From contig JAJRSO010000079.1 of assembly GCA_024278755.1 (NCBI GenBank), positions 1-32,879 of the forward strand: a stretch of 32,879 bases of DNA, read 5' to 3'. Shown piece by piece: positions 11,807-24,011 of this stretch (position 1 is its first letter; every line of letters starts with the position of its first letter). Below the pieces are notes generated by a model, which worked only from the letters and a program-made list of their open reading frames with translations, had not been told where the DNA came from and did not search any database. Source of the DNA: Calditrichota bacterium (GTDB lineage: Bacteria > Calditrichota > Calditrichia > Calditrichales > Calditrichaceae). Position numbers and translations under genes: made by a program.

Positions 11807-14656
11807 TCAGGTAATCGGGCAGAGACTCCGGCGGCGTTTGCTCCCGCAGCGCATTTCCAGACTTTGCATCCCTTTCAAAAATGTCTCGCTGCCGCTCTCA
11901 ATCCGTTCTTTCTGTTCCAACCCATGAACGATAACAAGCTCAAAGGCGTCCGGCTTTTCCTCGCCACTCTTTGGCAAACCGGAATCTTGCTGGCCAAATG
12001 TATCCGGAAATCCGATTTTAATGCGGTCTGCCACGAGCAGCGCATCAAACACCTCTGTCATCCATTTCAGCGGCGAATGGGGGACGACTTTTTCTTTTTT
12101 TAGCTGCGCCGATAAATATACGCGGCAGGCCGCCCGGGTAACCGCCGTATAAAAGACCCTTCTTGCTTCGGCAATTTCTTTCTGATTCTGGCGCTGGCGG
12201 AGCAGATCATACAACAAGCTGGATTCTGCCCCGTAAGAAGCCGGTTTTAAGGCCAGCCCGAAATCCGCATCCAAATAAACGCCGGCTTGTTTTTTACCAT
12301 TTTCTTTGTTTAGGTACGGCACAAAAACCACCGGGAATTGTAGCCCCTTAGCGGCGTGGATGGTCATAATTTTTACGGAACCGAGGTCTTCCCGAACCAG
12401 CTGCGCCTCTCCCTCGCGCATTCCGTTTTCGATCAGCTCTTCCATATTTTTTACAAAATCATTTAAACTGCCCAATCCGGCTGATTCGAAACGAGCCACC
12501 TGCTGAATCAGTTTTTCGATATTGGCGGTCAACTGTTCGCCGTTTAGTTGAGCGGCATACAGGGTACGCAGTTTGAGATCATCCATAATAATTTCACAAA
12601 AATCGGTTAAGGGCATCCGTCCGCGCAGTACAATCCATTTACGCAGTAGATTCAGCGTCCGGATTAAAGACTCTTTCTCTTCTTCGGGCAAGGCCGCTTT
12701 GCCCGAGGCAACAGTGTGCATTTTATGTAAATAATCCATGCCATCGGCCTGCGCTAAAAAGAACAACGCCTCGTCGGACAGCATAAACAAAGGCGAGCGC
12801 AAAACACCCACCAGCGCCAAATCGTCCTGCGGATTGCTTAAAAAGCGCAGCAAATGATAGAAATCGTACACTTCCTGTTTCTGCCAAAAACCAATCCCTT
12901 TTACCGTTTGGTAGGGGATATCGTATTTGCGCAGGGCCTGTTCGATTTTCAACAGATTGCTGCGGCTACGCATAAGGATAGCCGCGTCGCCGTATTCAAA
13001 GGGACGTTTGGTTTCGCCGTTTTCATAGACATGAACAGAAGCCTGTTCTTCCTTCAGTCGGGCAATGGTGCGGGCGATATATTCTTCTTCAGATTCCGTT
13101 TCATCCAATAGGGCAAGTTCCGCCCGTCCCGTACCGGGAACATTTCGCATTGCCTTAAGGGGATGGTAACCCACTCTAAAGGGGTCGGCGGCGCTTTCCT
13201 GTAAGACGCCGCCAAAAAGGTAATTGATAAAGGCATTCAGCCGCGGTAAAAAACGAAAGCTGCCGCTAAAAACAATATTTCCTTCTTTTACCGAAGCGCC
13301 GGCAATGGCCGCAAACTGATCTTTTACCTGCTTAAAAATACGAATATCGGCATTACGGAAGCCATAAATGGACTGTTTGGGATCGCCCACAATAAAAATC
13401 TTGTTTTTGGCCAACCCTTCTTTTCCCGCCGCCAACTGCGACACGATCTCCCATTGCAGGGTATTGGTATCCTGAAACTCATCCACCATAATATATTCGA
13501 ATCGCCGCGCCAGCGTCCGGCGAACCGCTTCGTTTTCCCGCAGCAGGTTTAACGCCAAAATCAGCAGGTCCTCAAAATCGAGCCAGCCGCGTTCCGCCTT
13601 TAAATTTTTATAAACCGCTTCTGTTACTTTGTGCAGCGTAAAAATATCCTGTAACAGCCCAAACCAGATTAAATCGTTTGAGTCGTCCGGGAATCCGGGA
13701 TTGGAACTCTTTTTCCGCTCTTCAATGGCAGCGCAAAAACCGCTTAATTCGATTAATTGTTCACGGCTTTGCGGTCCCCAGCAAGTGTTTCCTCCAAAGT
13801 TTTTAACCGATTTCAAGGCCTTGTTTTGCGAGCCGGTAAAAAATGAAGTCAGATCAAAAATCGTACGGTAAGCTTCCCGGTCCGGTTCGGCTCCGTTATT
13901 CAGCGCGACCGCTTTTTGCAGTAGCAGGCGCGCCTCGTGACCGACGCCGGTTTTTAAAGGAATGGTATCCGTATTTAAAACGGATTGAATTAAATTCATC
14001 AGCTCATTAAAAGCAGCCGGCGGCAGTACAAAATCGCGCATGGCGCGTAACCAGCGCCGCTCCAAAAAATCGCGATACGAATCGGCTGTAAAATCCGCAA
14101 AGCGTTCCTGCAGGCGTTTCATTTCGAAAGGCGCTTTTAAAGCCGTATTAAGTATTTCTTCTATCGAAGATTTTTCCACGGTATCAAACAAAGACGGACA
14201 AGGGGTTCCCTTATTTTGATCGGCCTGTTTAAAAACCTGATCGATGGCAGTACGCATAATTGTTTGCTGTTGAAAATCATCCATTTCCGTAAAATCCGGC
14301 GGCAGACCGGCTTCGATGGGAAACTCGCGTAGAATTCGGGCACAAAATCCGTGGATGGTGGAAATGGACGTCATACTTAACTGATCGCGAATTTGTAAAA
14401 GGCGGGCGCGTTCCTGTTTCGACCCGCTATCGTTAAGACGACGGTTTACCTCTTCGGCGGTACGTTCCTGCATCTCGGCGGCCGCTTTTTTAGTAAACGT
14501 AATCGCTAAAATTCCGCGCACTCCGGACGGACTTTGCAGAGCGATTTTTAAAAAACGTTCCACCAGCAGAGTCGTTTTTCCGGAGCCGGCTCCAGCGGTT
14601 ACCGAAATATTTTTATCAAGCGCCAGGGCTTTTTGTTGTTCTTGGGTAAGTGGCAT
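11807..14656 (-). CDS. addA: AddA helicase part (ATP-dependent nuclease subunit A), frameshifted at its 3' end
   Basis: A 949-residue UvrD/RecB-type superfamily 1A helicase. Walker A is GAGSGKT at residues 22-28. Other motifs are LAITFTKKAAAEM, STIHGFCARILREFP, MVDEFQDTNTLQW, VGDPKQSIYGFRNAD, MTIHAAKGLQFPVVFVP and VFYTAVTRA, so all helicase motifs are present in order. The frame ends after FLKGMQSLEM with about 13 unrelated residues, while the true continuation, the nuclease domain, lies in the adjacent frame. With one added base the protein would be about 1189 residues, normal for AddA. AddAB processes double-strand breaks for RecA loading and degrades foreign linear DNA. It lies 246 nt downstream of addB on the same strand. 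Confidence 0.92.
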   Translation of the reverse strand: MPLTQEQQKALALDKNISVTAGAGSGKTTLLVERFLKIALQSPSGVRGILAITFTKKAAAEMQERTAEEVNRRLNDSGSKQERARLLQIRDQLSMTSISTIHGFCARILREFPIEAGLPPDFTEMDDFQQQTIMRTAIDQVFKQADQNKGTPCPSLFDTVEKSSIEEILNTALKAPFEMKRLQERFADFTADSYRDFLERRWLRAMRDFVLPPAAFNELMNLIQSVLNTDTIPLKTGVGHEARLLLQKAVALNNGAEPDREAYRTIFDLTSFFTGSQNKALKSVKNFGGNTCWGPQSREQLIELSGFCAAIEERKKSSNPGFPDDSNDLIWFGLLQDIFTLHKVTEAVYKNLKAERGWLDFEDLLILALNLLRENEAVRRTLARRFEYIMVDEFQDTNTLQWEIVSQLAAGKEGLAKNKIFIVGDPKQSIYGFRNADIRIFKQVKDQFAAIAGASVKEGNIVFSGSFRFLPRLNAFINYLFGGVLQESAADPFRVGYHPLKAMRNVPGTGRAELALLDETESEEEYIARTIARLKEEQASVHVYENGETKRPFEYGDAAILMRSRSNLLKIEQALRKYDIPYQTVKGIGFWQKQEVYDFYHLLRFLSNPQDDLALVGVLRSPLFMLSDEALFFLAQADGMDYLHKMHTVASGKAALPEEEKESLIRTLNLLRKWIVLRGRMPLTDFCEIIMDDLKLRTLYAAQLNGEQLTANIEKLIQQVARFESAGLGSLNDFVKNMEELIENGMREGEAQLVREDLGSVKIMTIHAAKGLQFPVVFVPYLNKENGKKQAGVYLDADFGLALKPASYGAESSLLYDLLRQRQNQKEIAEARRVFYTAVTRAACRVYLSAQLKKEKVVPHSPLKWMTEVFDALLVADRIKIGFPDTFGQQDSGLPKSGEEKPDAFELVIVHGLEQKERIESGSETFLKGMQSLEMRCGSKRRRSLCPIT

Positions 14657-14902
14657 ATTTGTTTTCTGTTAATGATCTTTCATTTATTGTCAATACGGCC
14701 CGGTTATACTCTCTTACTCCCCTGACAGAGGCTGTGGTTCTAATAGGGATCCCTTGGGCAGTTTTTAACTAAACCGTAACGTTTTGCCAGGACAAGCTAT
14801 AAATACAGAGAATATCCTTGTTCGTTTTTAATTCTCTTTTCTTTGCACGCATAGCGTTCTCTGCGTTTAATTTTTATTCAACAATCTTCATTCGTTAATT
14901 TT

Positions 14903-17900
14903 TTACTCTTGCGCTTCCTGCGCATCCGCTTTCAGTATTTTCCCGGTTTGCTTCTGGCAAATACGTTTATAGGGACAGTATTTTGTGCAAAGATCATTTT
15001 GCGGTTCGCGTGTGTGCCGAAATACCCCCTGCCGCAGGGTCTGCACATTGGCCGCTGCCTTTTCCAGAGCAATCTGTAGCAGCGCATTTAAACGCAGTAA
15101 ATTCCCGTCATCATCTTTTAAATAGCGGTTCGGCAAGAAAGCCGTGCTTTTTCCCTTTTCCATACCAAATGCGGCCGCATCTGCCAGAAACAGTTTTCGT
15201 TCACAGCGCTGCGCGTCTTTCACCACATAGTAGGCTGCCGAATCCACTTCCAATTCCGGGCGCGCTTCTGCCAGCGCCAGCATATATAAAGGCAGTTGCA
15301 CACTGAGCCCTTTTAGCGTTTCTTTAGCGCTTTTCCCGGCCGCTCCCGTTCCGGTTTTATAATCGATTATCTCCGCCTGCCGCCCGTCTTTTACGTCAAT
15401 ACGGTCGATCCGGCCGCGCAGCTTCAGTGAACCGGAATTACACTTTAAGATAATTTCACGGTCTGCCGCTTTTCCAAATTCATATTCAAAATAGGTCGGA
15501 ATAAATCCGTCTTCATCAATATGCTGCTGATCGATTTCCAAGAAAACATCCAGCAAACCCGGGTTCTTTTCCGTGCCGAAATATTTTTTCTTTTCCAGTT
15601 CCCAGAAATATCCCGAAAACGGCAGGCGCGAAAGAATGATTTCTGCAATTTGAAAGAGGAGCTTCCTGTTGTTCCGCGGTTGCGCCTGTTGATCCTTCTC
15701 TTTTAACTGCGTATAAAATTCATACAGGATATCGTGCACGGCGCTGCCGCGCTCCAGGCTGGTCAGTTCGGGATCGGCCGATTCCCACTCTTCGACTTTC
15801 AGAATGTATTCCATAAAATAACGCATCGGGCAAAACGCATAGGTTTCTAAACGGCTGGCAGACCACTCTCGATTGTGATAGCGTTTTGTTAAAACCTGCA
15901 CAATCTGAGAATTATCCGACAGGACGCCTTCATAGCGACCAAAATCGACAGAAAAAGAACGCCGCGCCGTTAAAACGGTTTTTTGAAATAATTCCCGGAA
16001 AAGTGTTTTGGAGTTTCCGTCCAGCGCCGACAGAAGATGTATCTCCCGCCGCGCCTCCTCAAATTTATACTGTTGAATATGCCGTCCGAGGTTTTCCCAT
16101 AAACGGGTCTCATTCAGAGTAAAATCAACCGCCGGAAATGTTTTTTCCCTGCTGGTTTCGGTAATGTCCGTGAGGTCCGAAATAAACGTGGACGGCACTA
16201 AAGCGCGTTCTTCATCGTATTTCGGACAGGTTAGAATACATTTTTGATACGAAGCGTCTAACAGGGAATAAAATATAAAGCGGTCCTGCGACAATAATTC
16301 TTCCGTTGCGGCCAGTCCCATTTTTTCCCGGACAAAATCGCTGAAAAATACGTCCTTTGTAGAAGCCCGGGGGAAAACGCCATCGGTGAGGCCGCCCAAA
16401 AACAGCACCTGCGCTTCCAGCGCCTGCACCTCCAGCCGGGGCATAATCTGTACCCCGTACTCCTGCCATTCCGTTACATTATATAGCGCCCCTTCCGTTG
16501 CGGAATCCAGATACCGAATAAAACGGGACAACGTTACCGGTTTATCAGCTGTTACGCGCGCCGCCATCCAAACCAGCTGATCAAGCACCTTCATAAAACG
16601 GTTAAAGGCGCGAAATTCCATCTCTCTTTGCCGTTCCGTTACGTGGGGATTCGGAAGTTCGTACCAATGCAGTAGTTTTAACTCCGAAAGCAGCCGGATA
16701 AAAGTCTGCCGATAATCGGTTATGGACGCTTGTTTCGGAAAGGAACACAGCAGAGCCAAAACCTCTTCAATCCGTTCGATTTGTAACCGGATTTCTTCCT
16801 GTTGTTCCGTTTTAAGGCGCTTAAAAACAGAGGTGTTAAATAGGTACTCCACCCATCCCGGCGTAAACCGCGTAAGACGCGTTTCGGCCAAGAGAGCGTT
16901 AAGGCTTTTAAAATTAAATTCATGTGACTGAAACAGCGGATTGTTTAAAAAGCCAAGCGCGGCGTTCCACTCGCAGCCCGAAGCCGCCAGCCGCAGCGGC
17001 TGCAAAAACAATTTGATCAGCGGTGATTGATTTAGGGCAAATCCGGTAGACAGATTGAAGGGAATATGAAAACGCCGGAATACCTGCCGGATAAGCGGAA
17101 CATATTGTTCCAGGTTAGCAAAGGTTACCGCGATCCGCGCCGGAACGATTTTATTCCTTCGATACAATTGCCGGATACTTGCGGCAATAAATTCGACTTC
17201 CGCCTTGCGATCCTGAACCGTTTGTATGGCAATCCGCTCTTTTTGATCCTCTTTTGGAAGATTTTCTTTGTCTCTGTGAAAAAGCGCCCGGGCAAAAAAA
17301 GAATCTGTCATAGTATTTTGCTCTTCCGCGCCCATCGATTTTAAGCGCAGCCAGGCGTCGTGCGTATGCTGAAACAGGGCGGGATTTTCCGCGCTGTATT
17401 CCATTTTAATATGAAGCGGCAGCCAGGCCGAGAGTTTTTCGAAGAACAGAAACATAGCTGGCGTAAACAATCCGTATCCGGAAACAAAAATTTCTTTTAC
17501 CCGCGGGAACTGACGCTTAAACAGTTCTTCCGTCAGCAGCGAAGCAGCCGTATGTTTGGCAAAAGGTTCGTCGATGAGCTCTTCCCCGAGCGCTTCGTCC
17601 AGCGCCTGTAAAAGAAGCTCAAAATCGGAAAACTTGAGGGGTTGTACGTTTTTTTCTTCTATTTTAATTTGCGAAAACGCTTCGCTGTCGTAGCCAAAAC
17701 GGCGTAGTTCAAGCACCGCATCACTTACCTTGCGCACCAAACCGGTTGTAATATGTTCGCCTTTTAAAAAATACGGCAGACCGGCGGCGGCTTTTTCCAA
17801 AAGAGATTCTATCAGGATTTGCAACATACCGGCAGAGAGGACACGCTTTGCCCCGGGAAGAGCAGCATATAGTTTTAACAAAACCTGATCAAACGTATAA

Positions 17901-18076
17901 ATATTCGGGTCGAGCAGCGCCCCGGATTCGGAGGCGTCGAGCAAACGTTGTTTTAATATTCGTACGGCGCGGTTTACCGGCAAAATGGCAATATAGTCAT
18001 TTGCCCTGTTCCGAAGACGCTGTTCAAAAAAATAGAACTGTTTTGGGGGCGCGCAATAGAGCTGTAAGTTTTTCAT
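14903..18076 (-). CDS. addB: AddB-like nuclease subunit with Fe-S cluster
   Basis: A 1057-residue protein with the AddB/RexB layout: an inactivated helicase-like N-terminal two thirds and a C-terminal PD-(D/E)XK nuclease. Nuclease blocks are GSAVHDILYEFY, LKLRGRIDRIDV, AEIIDYKTG and QLPLYMLALAEA. The Fe-S staple is formed by one Cys before the nuclease (SASRLETYAFCPMRYF) and three at the C-terminus (CTKYCPYKRIC). The N-terminus, LYCAPPKQFYFFEQRL, lacks a Walker A motif where B. subtilis AddB has one, so ATP binding is unlikely here. It partners AddA in end resection. The spacer to addA holds no gene. Confidence 0.9.
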   Translation of the reverse strand: MKNLQLYCAPPKQFYFFEQRLRNRANDYIAILPVNRAVRILKQRLLDASESGALLDPNIYTFDQVLLKLYAALPGAKRVLSAGMLQILIESLLEKAAAGLPYFLKGEHITTGLVRKVSDAVLELRRFGYDSEAFSQIKIEEKNVQPLKFSDFELLLQALDEALGEELIDEPFAKHTAASLLTEELFKRQFPRVKEIFVSGYGLFTPAMFLFFEKLSAWLPLHIKMEYSAENPALFQHTHDAWLRLKSMGAEEQNTMTDSFFARALFHRDKENLPKEDQKERIAIQTVQDRKAEVEFIAASIRQLYRRNKIVPARIAVTFANLEQYVPLIRQVFRRFHIPFNLSTGFALNQSPLIKLFLQPLRLAASGCEWNAALGFLNNPLFQSHEFNFKSLNALLAETRLTRFTPGWVEYLFNTSVFKRLKTEQQEEIRLQIERIEEVLALLCSFPKQASITDYRQTFIRLLSELKLLHWYELPNPHVTERQREMEFRAFNRFMKVLDQLVWMAARVTADKPVTLSRFIRYLDSATEGALYNVTEWQEYGVQIMPRLEVQALEAQVLFLGGLTDGVFPRASTKDVFFSDFVREKMGLAATEELLSQDRFIFYSLLDASYQKCILTCPKYDEERALVPSTFISDLTDITETSREKTFPAVDFTLNETRLWENLGRHIQQYKFEEARREIHLLSALDGNSKTLFRELFQKTVLTARRSFSVDFGRYEGVLSDNSQIVQVLTKRYHNREWSASRLETYAFCPMRYFMEYILKVEEWESADPELTSLERGSAVHDILYEFYTQLKEKDQQAQPRNNRKLLFQIAEIILSRLPFSGYFWELEKKKYFGTEKNPGLLDVFLEIDQQHIDEDGFIPTYFEYEFGKAADREIILKCNSGSLKLRGRIDRIDVKDGRQAEIIDYKTGTGAAGKSAKETLKGLSVQLPLYMLALAEARPELEVDSAAYYVVKDAQRCERKLFLADAAAFGMEKGKSTAFLPNRYLKDDDGNLLRLNALLQIALEKAAANVQTLRQGVFRHTREPQNDLCTKYCPYKRICQKQTGKILKADAQEAQE

Positions 18077-18256: not shown

Positions 18257-19891
18257 ATGAAATCTATCAAAGGATTGATACCGGCCTCTGTTTTTTTTAT
18301 TACTGTTTTCCTGGTTGTATTCCTTTTAAATTCTTCTATCAATCAGGCGCCTTGTTGTTTTTCCTCTCTGTTAACGGCAGTAACGGCAACGTTATTGTTT
18401 ATTTTTTTACGCCGCTGGTATCTCGTCGAAGCAGGTTCCGAGGCACCGGATCAGCTTGAAAAAGCCTACCGGGAATTGGCAAAAGTCAAAACAGATACGA
18501 TGGATAAAGAAGAGAGTTTACGTAAGTTTTCCCGTATCATCGAGCAAAGCCCCACATCCATTGTAATTACCGATTTGAATGGAAAGATAGAATATGTTAA
18601 TCCCCGTTTTTGTGATATTACCGGTTATACTTACGATGAAGCAATCGGTCAAAATCCACGCATATTAAAATCCGGAGAAATACCGCCGGAAGAATATAAG
18701 AAATTGTGGGAAGCCATAAGTTCCGGCGAAATCTGGCGCGGCGAATTTCACAACAAGAAGAAAGACGGGACCTTATATTGGGAAGAGGCCCATATCGCTC
18801 CGGTAAAAAATTCTAAAGGAATAGTTACCCATTATATTGCCATTAAAGAAGATATTACCGTTAAAAAATCCATCGACGAAGCGCGAAAAATGTACGCCAA
18901 AGCGTTGCGCAGTATCCGCGATATGGTTATGCTGGTCGATTTAAAAGAACGAATTATTTATGTAAACGATGCGCTGTGTACTACTTTTAAATATAAAGAA
19001 GAACAGCTCTTAGGCAGGAATTTCCGTGTTCTGTTGCCGGCCGATACGCCGGAAGACGCACTCGGTAAATTTTTTAATACCGAAAGCGCCGACAGCTGGA
19101 AGGGGGATGTACGCTGTGTTACAAGACAGGGTCATATTTTTTACACCGCCATGTCCACTTCTGTCATTACCAATGAAAAAGACCGCCCCATTGCCTTTGC
19201 CGGGATTTTAAACGATTTAACGGAAGAGCACAGCGTACAGGAAAATATGCGCAAAGCCGAAATGCTCATTACGATTCAGGAACTGGCCGGTTCAGTATCG
19301 CATGAGTTTTCACAACCATTGCAGGCGCTGAACAATTATATCAGTCTGCTTAAGATGGGCAAGATAAAAAAAGAATATCTGAATAACAGCGAACTGGCCG
19401 TTAAGCGAATTGCCGAACTGGTGGACAATCTTTCGGAAATCACCAGCATTCAAAAGCAGGATTATCTTAATACAAAAATAATTGATTTAAAAGCCTCGGC
19501 GCTCAAAAAACAAAAGCTGGCTCAAAAACGTATTTTAGTGGTAGATGATGAACCGCAGATACTGGAAACCGTCACCGAAATGCTACGTATTGCCGGATAT
19601 GAATGCGATGGCGCCGCAGACGGGCTGGAAGCGCTGCAAAAGATAAGTAAACAACAATATCAGTTGGTGATTTCGGATATCAATATGCCGCGTATGAGCG
19701 GTATTCGGCTCTTTGAAAAATTACAGACCATCGGATTTAAAGGCGCTTTTGTGTTTCTAACCGGGTACTCGGTGCCAAACGAAATCAGCTATTTTATTAA
19801 GGATATTGACGGTCTTTTAAATAAACCGGTGGATATGCATAAATTAATCGAAATCGTAAAAACGATACTCGGCCAGGCAGAAATAGAGTAA
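18257..19891 (+). CDS. PAS-PAS-HisKA-receiver sensor protein lacking an ATPase domain
   Basis: A 544-residue protein. Two membrane helices lie at about residues 8-27 and 34-52. PAS domain 1 covers about 86-203 (SIVITDLNGKIEYVNPRFCDITGY) with a PAC motif, and PAS domain 2 about 214-325. A HisKA-type dimerisation helix follows, with the candidate phosphoacceptor His349 in GSVSHEFSQPLQAL. The receiver domain begins at residue 425 (RILVVDDEP), with acidic Asp430/431, phosphoacceptor Asp474, Thr502 and Lys523. Between the HisKA helices and the receiver there are only about 30 residues, so the HATPase_c domain expected of a hybrid kinase is absent. It probably cannot autophosphorylate alone. A small co-oriented gene 81 nt downstream resembles a degenerate ATPase domain. 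Confidence 0.85.
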   Translation: MKSIKGLIPASVFFITVFLVVFLLNSSINQAPCCFSSLLTAVTATLLFIFLRRWYLVEAGSEAPDQLEKAYRELAKVKTDTMDKEESLRKFSRIIEQSPTSIVITDLNGKIEYVNPRFCDITGYTYDEAIGQNPRILKSGEIPPEEYKKLWEAISSGEIWRGEFHNKKKDGTLYWEEAHIAPVKNSKGIVTHYIAIKEDITVKKSIDEARKMYAKALRSIRDMVMLVDLKERIIYVNDALCTTFKYKEEQLLGRNFRVLLPADTPEDALGKFFNTESADSWKGDVRCVTRQGHIFYTAMSTSVITNEKDRPIAFAGILNDLTEEHSVQENMRKAEMLITIQELAGSVSHEFSQPLQALNNYISLLKMGKIKKEYLNNSELAVKRIAELVDNLSEITSIQKQDYLNTKIIDLKASALKKQKLAQKRILVVDDEPQILETVTEMLRIAGYECDGAADGLEALQKISKQQYQLVISDINMPRMSGIRLFEKLQTIGFKGAFVFLTGYSVPNEISYFIKDIDGLLNKPVDMHKLIEIVKTILGQAEIE

Positions 19892-19972
19892 TCAGCCGGA
19901 ATCTGTTATAAATATTGCAGGTACAAAAGCTTCTGATTATATTATCTCAACCCTGCAAAAAAGGAATAAAAT

Positions 19973-20335
19973 ATGACCGAGAAAACAATCGATTTAAAAC
20001 AGTTGCTCTATTTAATCAGTGATCAAAAAGAGCTGGATATAAACTTAAACCTGGACGAAGGCTGTACCTTCGAAGCGGACGACCCGAAACCATTGGTTAA
20101 AGTGATTAATTATCTTCTAAACTATATGGCCCAACTTACCGCACAAACTATCGAAATTTCTTTAGATTTATTACCCGAACAGTTTCGTCTCTCCTTTTTG
20201 GCCTACACCACGGCCGAAACCCTGCCCGAAATTAGCGGGAACTTACAAAACGCTCTGGATATGTACCAGGCTGTTTTTCAGTTCCACCACGAAAAGGGCC
20301 GTTACGTTAAAGCGTCTGTTAGCTTTCAGAAATAA
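19973..20335 (+). CDS. Small protein resembling a degenerate histidine-kinase ATPase domain
   Basis: A 120-residue cytoplasmic protein preceded by a good ribosome-binding site (AAGGAA). Its pattern follows an HATPase_c domain: an IDLKQLL start, then FEADDPKPLVKVINYLLNY where kinases have ADP..L..VL.NLL.NA, then TIEISLDL and FRLSFLAY strands, and a final GRYVKASVSF strand. The N-box asparagine is replaced and there are no G1 or G2 glycine boxes, so ATP binding is unlikely. It sits 81 nt after a sensor that lacks this domain and may dock on its HisKA dimer, as the ATPase-like domain of the phosphotransferase ChpT does. That role is inference, and unrelated ancestry is possible. Confidence 0.5.
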   Translation: MTEKTIDLKQLLYLISDQKELDINLNLDEGCTFEADDPKPLVKVINYLLNYMAQLTAQTIEISLDLLPEQFRLSFLAYTTAETLPEISGNLQNALDMYQAVFQFHHEKGRYVKASVSFQK

Positions 20336-20461
20336 TACGTTTCCCCTTTGCGTTTTTTGTTTTATCCCTAAGCCTCTGTTTCAAATGATATAAATCACGT
20401 TTGAACCTGAATTGTTTTTATACTTTAAGTTGGTAAGTTTTACTTTAATATACCATTTAGC

Positions 20462-20474
20462 AGGAGGCTTTATG
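20462..20474 (+). promoter_or_regulatory. Ribosome binding site setting the metalloprotease start
   Basis: A perfect AGGAGG at 20462-20467 lies 4 nt before the ATG at 20472. The frame is open further upstream to an ATG at 20412, but only the 20472 start places the signal peptide (MHFTRILLVTSIVIGF) at the N-terminus. Confidence 0.85.
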
Positions 20475-23400
20475 CATTTTACCCGTATTTTACTCGTAAC
20501 AAGCATTGTTATCGGATTTTTTTCTTTTCCGGCTTTTGCTCATAAAAGCAGGCCTTTGTCTCTTTTGGAAAAAAACAATTTAAAAACTACGGCCGCTTTA
20601 AAAACCGCCGATGGAAAGATTGACGCAGAAACGGGCGTTATTCGCTATCTCTACGGCAGGAAAATAGACGGATATTCCGGCAGCGCAGAGGAAATTGCCC
20701 ATGCGTTCATTTCCGACAGAGCGGAGCGCTTTGGCCTGGATATTTCCAGGGACGAGCTTAAAACCTTTGCCGTTAAACCGTCGAAAGGCGGCACTTCCGT
20801 TCTTTTTGATCAAACCTACCGCGGTATTCCCGTTTATGGTTCGCGCATTGTTATTACCTTAAATAAATTAAATGAAATTACCTTTGCCGCCAGCACCTTT
20901 CGGCCGCTAAAACAGAGTATCTCCACTTCGGCTTCTGTTTCCGAAACCCAGGCCGTCGAAGCGGCACGGAACTACCTTCAGGTAAGCGGAAAATTAATCG
21001 GCCGTCAGTTTGCCGGGCAAACTATTTTAGAAACCTCCGACCGCGGATTTGTTTTAACCTGGCGAGTGGTCGTGCCCACCGAAGCGCCCATGGGCGATTG
21101 GGAAGTTTTTGTGGACGCCGCGTCCGGGGAAATTATTCATGTAAGAGATATGATGATGTACGCAGACGGGAAAGGCCTGGTCTGGGATCCGGATCCGCTG
21201 ACCACAGCCGGGGTTACCTACGGCGGTCTGTACAAAGACAACAATGACGCCGATTCCAACGAACTGAATGATGAACGCATTGAAGTGGTTTTAAAAGATA
21301 TCACCTACGAAGGCGGTTTATACAAACTCAAAGGGCCCTATGCGGTATTATCCGACCGGGAATCGCCATCGGATACCTTCCCCGAACTGGCTGATTCGTC
21401 TATGTTCCGTTTTACCCGCAATGAGCAAAATTTTGAATCGGTAATGGCCTACTACCATGTGGATAAATCTACCCGCCACCTGATTTTGGATTTGGGTTAT
21501 GATGAAGTAAAACAGCATAATTTTGAAGTGGATCCGCACGGACTGAGCGGCGATGATAACTCGCACTATGTGACTTCCGATAATTACCTCGCCCTTGGTG
21601 AAGGCGGCGTGGATGATTCCGAAGACGCCGACGTTATCTGGCATGAACATGCCCATTCTTTTCAGACCAATTTAACCGGCGGTATGTCCTACAGCGGCGA
21701 AACCATGTCTTTGCAGGAAGGAAGCTCCGATTACTGGGCCGCTTCCTATTCCCGTATCACCAACGATTACAACTGGGGTTATGTTTTTTCCTGGGACGGC
21801 CATAATGAATTCTGGAACGGCCGGCGCTGTGACCTGGACTGGGTTTACCCGGACGATTACGTTAGCGGGCACGACGGCGGACAGATTTGGTCTTCGGCCC
21901 TGATGGATATCTGGATTCAGGTGGGACGCGAAGTCACCGATACCGATTTCATCGAAACACATTATATCTGGGGCTATTCCCCCGGGTTGCAGGACGCGGC
22001 TCAGGCCTATATTCAAGCCGATGAAAATGTGTACGGCGGCGCGCATAAAGGCATTATTATCGACGCCTTTGACGCCCACGGTCTGGTGGACAAAGCAGAT
22101 TATATGGCAACTATTACACACACCCCGTTAACCGACACCGAAGAGTCGGTCAGTGGTTATGATGTAGTTGCCACCATCACACAGGGCGCCGATCCGCTTG
22201 ATCCCAACCGCATGTGGGTGGTTTACGGTGTTTCTGCCTTAACCGACTCGGTATTGATGACCGCCACCGGCGGAACCAATGAATATATGGGTACCATTCC
22301 GGATTTGGGTAATGAAATCGATATTCAGTATTATATTTCTGTAATCGATCAGGGTAATAATGTTAGCAACGATCCCAGCGACGCGCCAACCGGCTACCAT
22401 AGTTTTCATGTGGGTACCGATTTGGAAGCGCCGGTGATTACCCATACCGCTTTAGGCGATCAGGCGCTGGCTCAATGGCCGGCCACGGTAAGCGCCACCG
22501 TTACCGACAACGCCGGCGTGGATACGGTGATTTGCTATTTCGGTCATAACAGCACAAGCGCTCTGGACAGTTTTCCTCTTGTTACCAGCGGAAACGATTT
22601 ATATGAAAACCCTTTCCCCCTCGACGCGGCACAACTGACGATTGGCGACTCCATTCATTATTACATCGTTGCGCAGGATGTTGCGCAAAACACGAATAGC
22701 AGCCGCGAACCGGCCAACGGATTTCATTCTTTTCAAATCATCGACACTAAGGGTCTGGTTTTAATTGTGGATGATGATCCCAATGGTAAAACAGCAGATA
22801 ATTCCGGCAAACCCGCGGTTGTGCGTACAAAAGAATCCTACGGTAAATCGGCCGATGACATTCAAACCTGGCTGGATGCCCTGGGTTATTCCACCGAAAA
22901 GGTCACGGTAGCCACCGCGCTGAATACCGATTTTTCAAATTACGATTTGGTCATTTCCTCCAGCGGCGCAAACACTTCACCGGTTTCGGATAGCAATTAC
23001 CGCACAAAACTGGAAGACTGGACCGCAACGGCCGGTCATAAACTACTTATCGAAGGCGGCGAACTGGGTTACGATGCGCTGAGCTCACCCGGCTATTCTT
23101 CTTTTGCGGCCAATGTTCTGCATTCTACCAAATGGAATACGGACAATGCCGGCAACCTGCAAACGGTAAGCGGGCAGGAAAATCACGCTATTTTAAATAC
23201 GCCAAATACCATTCCGTCTCCTCTTTCCGTCAGCTACAGCGGTTATGGCGATGAAGACGCCGTCGAACCGGATGCCCAGTCTTACATCATAATGGAACCC
23301 GCGAGCAACGCGGCCAACGCCGGCATACTGGTGTATGATGATGACAACGACCCCAATTCGGCACAGACGGTTTATTTTGCCTTTAACCTGGCGGCGCTCA

Positions 23401-24011
23401 ACAGCACGGATGGCAAGAATTTACTGGATAATTCCGTTGCCTTTTTACTGGCCGGACCCGTCGGCGCCATTAGCGGAACGGTTGATCTTACCGACACCGA
23501 AGACGACAGCGGGGTTTCCGTCTATTTAAGCGGCGATGCAGCGGATACGCTGCTTACCAATGCCAGCGGATTTTACCGTTTCAGCGGATTGGTTGATGGC
23601 ACCTATTCGGTAAAAATTCACAAGAGCGGTTACACCACTTCCGACAGTGTTGCCAGCGGTTTGACCGTTAGCCAGGATACGGTGCAGAATGTGAACTTTT
23701 CGATGGATCCGATTATTTCGGCAATCGGAAAAGACGGACAGACGCCGCAGGAATATGCGCTGGCACAAAATTATCCCAATCCGTTTAACCCGAGCACTAC
23801 CATTAATTACCAATTACCGATTGCCAATTATACGGAATTAACTATTTATAATGCGCTGGGACAAAAGGTGCGAACATTAATAAACAAAAAACAGGAGTCC
23901 GGAGCCTATTCGGTTTCCTTTGACGCTTCCGCTTTAAGCAGCGGGGTTTACTACTACCGATTAAGCGCCGGTTCCTTTGTGCAGATTCGCAAAATGATTT
24001 TAATGAAATAA
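20472..24011 (+). CDS. Secreted thermolysin-like metalloprotease with a type IX-like sorting domain
   Basis: A 1179-residue multi-domain protein. Signal peptide at residues 1-24 (ending FPAFA). Propeptide with FTP/PepSY segments at about 60-235 (FDQTYRGIPVYGSRIV, GDWEVFVDAASGEIIHV). Zinc protease domain at about 235-545 with HEHAH at 391-395 and the third-ligand Glu416 in LQEGSSDYW, a gluzincin pattern near M4/M36. Two beta-sandwich repeats follow (THTPLTDTEE, THTALGDQALAQWP). An unassigned alpha/beta segment begins VLIVDDDPNGK. Then come a carboxypeptidase-regulatory-like module (GAISGTVDLTD) and a C-terminal sorting domain from about 1096 (YPNPFNPSTTINYQL, ending QIRKMILMK). It is probably exported to the cell surface or medium for protein degradation. 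Confidence 0.9.
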   Translation: MHFTRILLVTSIVIGFFSFPAFAHKSRPLSLLEKNNLKTTAALKTADGKIDAETGVIRYLYGRKIDGYSGSAEEIAHAFISDRAERFGLDISRDELKTFAVKPSKGGTSVLFDQTYRGIPVYGSRIVITLNKLNEITFAASTFRPLKQSISTSASVSETQAVEAARNYLQVSGKLIGRQFAGQTILETSDRGFVLTWRVVVPTEAPMGDWEVFVDAASGEIIHVRDMMMYADGKGLVWDPDPLTTAGVTYGGLYKDNNDADSNELNDERIEVVLKDITYEGGLYKLKGPYAVLSDRESPSDTFPELADSSMFRFTRNEQNFESVMAYYHVDKSTRHLILDLGYDEVKQHNFEVDPHGLSGDDNSHYVTSDNYLALGEGGVDDSEDADVIWHEHAHSFQTNLTGGMSYSGETMSLQEGSSDYWAASYSRITNDYNWGYVFSWDGHNEFWNGRRCDLDWVYPDDYVSGHDGGQIWSSALMDIWIQVGREVTDTDFIETHYIWGYSPGLQDAAQAYIQADENVYGGAHKGIIIDAFDAHGLVDKADYMATITHTPLTDTEESVSGYDVVATITQGADPLDPNRMWVVYGVSALTDSVLMTATGGTNEYMGTIPDLGNEIDIQYYISVIDQGNNVSNDPSDAPTGYHSFHVGTDLEAPVITHTALGDQALAQWPATVSATVTDNAGVDTVICYFGHNSTSALDSFPLVTSGNDLYENPFPLDAAQLTIGDSIHYYIVAQDVAQNTNSSREPANGFHSFQIIDTKGLVLIVDDDPNGKTADNSGKPAVVRTKESYGKSADDIQTWLDALGYSTEKVTVATALNTDFSNYDLVISSSGANTSPVSDSNYRTKLEDWTATAGHKLLIEGGELGYDALSSPGYSSFAANVLHSTKWNTDNAGNLQTVSGQENHAILNTPNTIPSPLSVSYSGYGDEDAVEPDAQSYIIMEPASNAANAGILVYDDDNDPNSAQTVYFAFNLAALNSTDGKNLLDNSVAFLLAGPVGAISGTVDLTDTEDDSGVSVYLSGDAADTLLTNASGFYRFSGLVDGTYSVKIHKSGYTTSDSVASGLTVSQDTVQNVNFSMDPIISAIGKDGQTPQEYALAQNYPNPFNPSTTINYQLPIANYTELTIYNALGQKVRTLINKKQESGAYSVSFDASALSSGVYYYRLSAGSFVQIRKMILMK

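Follow-up and report, generated by a model that had tools for sequence, protein, structure and literature searches.

Organization of the locus

The window, by which we mean the entire 32,879-nucleotide stretch of the Calditrichota contig JAJRSO010000079.1 that was analysed, contains on its forward strand a gene for a membrane sensor with HisKA and receiver (REC) domains and no CA (HATPase_c) domain and, 81 bp 3' of it on the same strand, a small gene for a stand-alone protein with a predicted CA fold. The features are as follows.

18257..19891, + strand: CA-less sensor, 544 aa, with two transmembrane helices followed by PAS, PAS, HisKA and REC (open reading frame, Pfam, homologues)
Within the sensor, about aa 8-24 and 36-52: transmembrane helices, predicted by reading the sequence
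18524..18859, + strand: first PAS domain of the sensor, aa 90-201 (Pfam PAS_9/PAS)
18902..19225, + strand: second PAS domain of the sensor, about aa 216-323 (second Pfam PAS stretch; borders approximate)
19277..19453, + strand: HisKA/DHp hairpin of the sensor, aa 341-399 (Pfam; DHp helices in the structure model)
19457..19501, + strand: sensor tail QDYLNTKIIDLKASA, aa 401-415, with REC directly after it (conservation)
19532..19858, + strand: REC domain of the sensor, aa 426-534 (Pfam Response_reg, E 5.5e-23)
19973..20335, + strand: predicted pseudo-CA protein, stand-alone, 120 aa (AlphaFold2, Foldseek, VIA-align, family alignment)
20087..20137, + strand: helix of the small protein at the place of the N-box, aa 39-55 (alignments, AlphaFold2 model, HATPase alignment)

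The original prediction had described the sensor as two PAS domains, a HisKA domain carrying His349 and a receiver carrying Asp474, the HATPase_c domain being missing, and the open reading frame coordinates and Pfam matches confirm this description. His349 is encoded by CAT at 19301-19303 and lies within the motif HEFSQPLQ, which places Glu350 at H+1 and Gln353 at H+4; Asp474 is encoded by GAT at 19676-19678. Pfam finds no HATPase_c domain in the 544 residues of the sensor, and nothing lies between HisKA and REC. Measured against a hybrid kinase, the sensor thus has the HisKA histidine and the receiver aspartate and has no CA domain in the same chain. The receiver appears complete, with the D-D pair, the Asp, the Thr and the Lys all present and invariant across 15 homologues. 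The tail between HisKA and REC is predicted to be disordered in isolation, and the structure model contains a DHp hairpin and a receiver only.

Upstream of the sensor are addB and addA, on the opposite (minus) strand at 11807-18076 of the window, and addB also adjoins the sensor in G001 (L031), G009 (L107) and G004 (L141). Downstream of the pair is a secreted thermolysin-like protease with a Por sorting tail (20412-24011), and a related gene adjoins the small gene in G001 and G007. A scan for promoters and terminators around the gene pair gave results no better than those from shuffled sequences. The closest named relative is the Calditrichaceae MAG JANTFQ010000052, whose sensor is 74% identical.

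A conserved family of CA-less HisKA proteins

Strong homologues of the sensor were found in G001, G002, G009 and G015-G020, and in a HisKA-REC search the HisKA domain runs straight into REC in every one of them. In all 15 aligned HisKA-REC homologues there is no gap between the two domains, and the phosphoacceptor His, the receiver Asp and the catalytic residues of the receiver are invariant; the proteins of G003 and G008 end just past HisKA. If the sensor of the window had merely suffered a local deletion, its relatives might be expected to retain an internal HATPase_c domain. Pfam shows no HATPase domain in ten sensor homologues, and no close homologue with an internal CA domain was seen among those examined, such that the original prediction survives on this point.

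We defined the family by a profile of HisKA plus the tail (A3, then A5) with no CA domain after the match. Fetched matches of the A5 type with E values of 1e-17 or below are all CA-less, and at weaker scores ordinary kinases are mixed in; the sensor of the window matches profile A5 with an E value of 4.7e-32. This long-tail family is present in 21 of the 40 Calditrichota genomes, including G004 in which the gene is cut by the contig end, and in 22 of the 345 genomes sampled outside Calditrichota, with a CA-less family member contained in all 20 of the non-Calditrichota stretches that were fetched. The consensus of the tail is roughly YxxxxKIIDIxxSS (DYLxTKIIDLKASS), its position is the one expected for the opening strand of a CA domain, and Tyr403 and Ile408 are invariant in the profile alignments (A3, A5 and A6). 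Because the tail is both conserved and predicted to be disordered, these patterns suggest that it is a putative binding element.

Among 66 collected rows, which extend to an E value of 1e-13 and of which two, L213 and L214, are ordinary kinases with the motif HEINNP and the ATPase half following, 62 have Glu at H+1 and 62 have Gln at H+4. In HisKA proteins the Glu at H+1 is needed for kinase activity and not for phosphatase activity (PMC3510030). Conservation of this Glu therefore favours phosphorylation of the His in trans, by a CA domain and ATP. The CA-less HisKA family is old, spread across many phyla, and found mostly in genomes that have no small protein.

Other arrangements without a CA domain were also noted. 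Short REC-HisKA proteins, 220-251 aa in length and stopping immediately after HisKA, are encoded in nine genomes of family f1 (L198-L206), and a similar protein is present in G003 (L197). Proteins in G025 (L210:1236-2306) and G026 (L212:1330-2418) have HisKA-REC preceded by an extra receiver-like N-terminal part, again with no CA domain, and similar lengths and contiguous HisKA-REC matches occur in many genomes of f3, f5 and f6.

The small protein has a predicted CA fold without nucleotide-binding motifs

By sequence, the 120-residue protein has no meaningful match in Pfam, NCBIfam or the PDB, and it is not among the 75 HATPase_c matches obtained by searching its own genome with PF02518. Weak PDB sequence matches (epi-isozizaene synthase and Top7) were dismissed as chance. 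The AlphaFold2 model, built from an alignment of 29 homologues, has a pLDDT of 93.1 and a pTM of 0.85 and shows the order of elements of a CA domain. With this model Foldseek retrieves the CA/HATPase fold (E 4e-8) and the best match in VIA-align is the CA domain of VanSA (Z 16.5 over 116 residues); among the matches listed, CA domains fill the top rows of both searches, and ChpT and Spo0B are not among the best 50 VIA-align rows. The earlier proposal that this protein resembles a kinase ATPase domain would have failed had no structural similarity been seen, and the structure search instead points to the HATPase/CA fold.

The proposal also held that the N-box asparagine and both glycine boxes are lost, with which the family alignments agree. 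Neither DxGxG nor GxGxG is present in any of the 26 aligned members, the model has an ATP lid reduced to some 12 residues, and the two N-box Asn positions are occupied by Tyr47 (the first) and Tyr51, according to a weak profile-profile alignment with 11 HATPases (P 0.006). Because that alignment is weak, the assignment of the fold is based on the structure model, from which the small protein is predicted to have a histidine-kinase CA fold without the ATP lid, the N-box Asn or the glycine boxes. Lacking the nucleotide motifs, it presumably cannot replace the CA domain of a kinase chemically.

The family has invariant residues of its own, which the original prediction had not noted: Asp7, Ile15, Lys19, Cys31, Asn46, Tyr47, Asn50 and Leu64, with Lys43 near-invariant, and Asn46, Asn50 and Lys43 occupy another face of the helix than Tyr47 and Tyr51. 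These residues argue that the small family is a maintained protein reflecting conserved re-use rather than decay. The gene order by itself would fit a simple history in which the CA domain disappeared from an ordinary hybrid kinase and the gene downstream is its decaying remnant. We find this scarcely credible and reject it, since both families are conserved and intact with family-specific invariant residues, and an internal CA domain was not found in any close homologue. Neither gene is broken or a local accident, and each belongs to its own conserved family. One copy of the small gene elsewhere (L014, G019:C248:23496-23837) is broken by an in-frame TGA.

Distribution and genomic context of the small gene

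Of the 40 Calditrichota genomes, 27 carry the small gene, each with one or two copies. Among the 345 non-Calditrichota genomes sampled there is a single match, in G092, from one other phylum; G040's phylum was represented in this search by one genome. The G092 copy (L097:7262-7627) is a distant homologue located between radA and a YebC-like gene, and an Asn is retained at its N-box position. Among the matches in the 385 genomes, whose open frames are no longer than 206 aa, none joins the small domain to HisKA.

The small gene is mostly surrounded by genes that have no connection with signalling, and it is usually located far from any CA-less sensor. It adjoins the sensor in G000, G001 and G009, which represent two of about 18 genera carrying the small gene. 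Genes of two-component systems (TCS) account for 9 of the 231 genes in small-gene neighbourhoods (about 4%), so a few such adjacencies are to be expected and adjacency to the sensor is only mildly enriched. The small-family tree does not unite the sensor-adjacent copies of G000 and G001 with that of G009, and most of its deep forks are unresolved. In G006, G013 and G014 the small gene is preceded by a gene for a GAF/HATPase kinase-like protein. The G006 version of this protein (L098:10267-12627) is degenerate and has a PAS-GAF arrangement, matching HATPase below threshold and HisKA not at all. In two f5 genera, represented by G025 and G030, the order is a SixA-type histidine phosphatase, the small gene and a receiver gene (L110:8124-8994 and L115:7938-8927). 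Both contexts count in favour of the partnership.

The survey of relatives therefore gives a divided answer to the original prediction, for although His349 is invariant in the 15 homologues, the gene pair is adjacent in only 2 of about 18 genera. The anatomy of the domains is as predicted, but the suggestion that the catalytic domain was shed by a hybrid kinase and that a degenerate one is supplied in trans goes beyond the evidence, as the CA-less family is old and the small gene is mostly unlinked.

Association of the two families

The small gene is present in 19 of the 21 genomes with a long-tail CA-less HisKA protein versus 8 of the 19 others (Fisher p 0.002). The association is also seen when 28 genera are compared (p 0.004), with families f1 and f2 set aside (p 0.045), and upon permutation within families (p 0.042), these tests having been picked after the data were seen and the p values being uncorrected for the number of tests. 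Restricted to the HEFSQPLQ subfamily, to which the sensor belongs, the within-family p value is 0.41. The co-occurrence is thus positive but confounded by phylogeny.

There are also genomes holding one partner only. G027 and G034 have a long-tail CA-less HisKA protein and no small gene was detected in either. Eight genomes have the small gene and no member of the long-tail family, and seven of these eight have other CA-less HisKA proteins; several genomes that do not have the small gene also have contiguous HisKA-REC matches. CA-less HisKA proteins in general, occurring both with and without the small gene, are therefore no predictor of it. Together with the unlinked genes, these genomes rule out obligate pairing as a general rule, and a trans-partnership of the sensor and the small protein is weakly supported.

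The sensor could instead function without a partner, either in phosphotransfer as a CA-less protein or as a receiver phosphatase, with the small protein an unrelated neighbour that serves as a competitive dummy CA domain on complete kinases. We consider this explanation quite possible, if on balance doubtful. The frequency of CA-less HisKA proteins where the small protein is absent fits it well, as do the mainly unlinked small genes and the position of the small gene behind a GAF/HATPase kinase-like protein in G006 and its genus, whereas the positive co-occurrence and the tight same-strand order in two genera argue for a connection. The phosphatase version is further disfavoured because in HisKA proteins a Thr or Asn at H+4 is needed for phosphatase activity only (PMC3510030), and H+4 is Gln rather than Thr or Asn in 62 of the 66 rows.

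We also considered that the HisKA domain of the sensor and the small protein might constitute one obligate two-chain histidine phosphotransferase, a true split version of ChpT or Spo0B. Both halves of ChpT are represented, as a HisKA hairpin and an apparently ATP-dead CA fold, and the genes adjoin in two genera. This is nonetheless improbable, in view of the two genomes (G027 and G034) with the HisKA family and no detected small gene, the many CA-less members in other phyla, most of which are without the small protein, and the retained Glu at H+1, which suggests direct phosphorylation by a kinase.

Discussion

Histidine kinases are usually counted by the presence of HisKA together with an ATPase domain, and proteins with HisKA only are easily dismissed as fragments. 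The data described here show a bacteria-wide, conserved HisKA family in which the CA domain is absent and a conserved tail is in place, and a phylum-level family of free-standing proteins with a predicted CA fold, which have lost the nucleotide motifs and kept invariant residues of their own. A search of the open-access literature, subscription papers being outside its scope, yielded no account of either family. Should the small family indeed act in trans as a regulator of HisKA bundles, it would represent a pseudo-kinase subunit with a gene of its own.

The domain contents of the two proteins, the predicted CA fold, the absence of nucleotide motifs, the conservation of both families and the adjacency in two genera are the observations from which we infer phosphate flow, docking and partnership. 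The explanation that we favour, tentatively, is that the sensor serves as a signal-gated hub whose phosphoacceptor is charged in trans by ordinary kinases, and that the small protein is a nucleotide-dead CA subunit docking on HisKA bundles. The sensor would dimerise via HisKA, as is usual in this domain family. A signal would be sensed through the PAS domains and His349 offered as phosphoacceptor, to receive phosphate in trans either from an ordinary kinase, through its CA domain, or from a phosphorylated receiver; the many complete kinases of the cell, whose genome has 75 HATPase_c matches, could provide the pool of donors. His349 would then exchange phosphate with Asp474 and with other receivers. 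The small protein may dock on HisKA bundles, in this genus those of the sensor, and regulate access to them as a structural or regulatory subunit in the manner of the ATP-dead CA half of ChpT, and may likewise be compared with PhyT. A more specific version, a split unit in which the lone pseudo-CA protein binds in trans, with the conserved tail as a conceivable docking site, and thereby switches a whole class of CA-less HisKA hubs, is speculative and we regard it as rather unlikely.

FixL and DctB are HisKA kinases with the motif HExNQP and a CA domain of their own. They share with the sensor a HisKA pattern with Gln at H+4, and differ from it in having that CA domain. The split kinase of Rhodobacter sphaeroides has phosphoacceptor and catalytic domain on separate proteins, CheA4 binding ATP and phosphorylating CheA3 (PMC3591291), much as the sensor and the predicted CA-fold protein are separate here. 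However, nucleotide motifs are absent from the small protein, and its putative partner offers a HisKA domain as acceptor rather than P1/Hpt; a separate, working ATP-binding CA protein, as in a split kinase, is therefore not what the small gene appears to encode. PhyT of Sphingomonas melonis is thought to descend from a kinase whose CA domain degenerated, and is a membrane sensor whose phosphoacceptor His passes phosphate between receivers, a role that we propose for the sensor; unlike the sensor, in which the CA domain is absent and the motif is HEFSQP, PhyT has its degenerate CA domain in the same chain and an HRxxN motif (PMC5898713).

ChpT of Caulobacter crescentus is the precedent for an ATP-dead CA domain (PMC3433190). 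It combines a HisKA-like phospho-His hairpin with a CA (Bergerat) fold that has lost its lid and binds no ATP (PMC3433190), features that are predicted for the pair described here. ChpT is a single chain and has neither PAS nor REC domains (PMC3433190), whereas here the hairpin and the ATP-dead CA fold that ChpT and Spo0B hold in one chain are on separate genes, and the HisKA half has sensor domains and a receiver. By analogy, a ChpT-like role for the sensor and the small protein together is possible.
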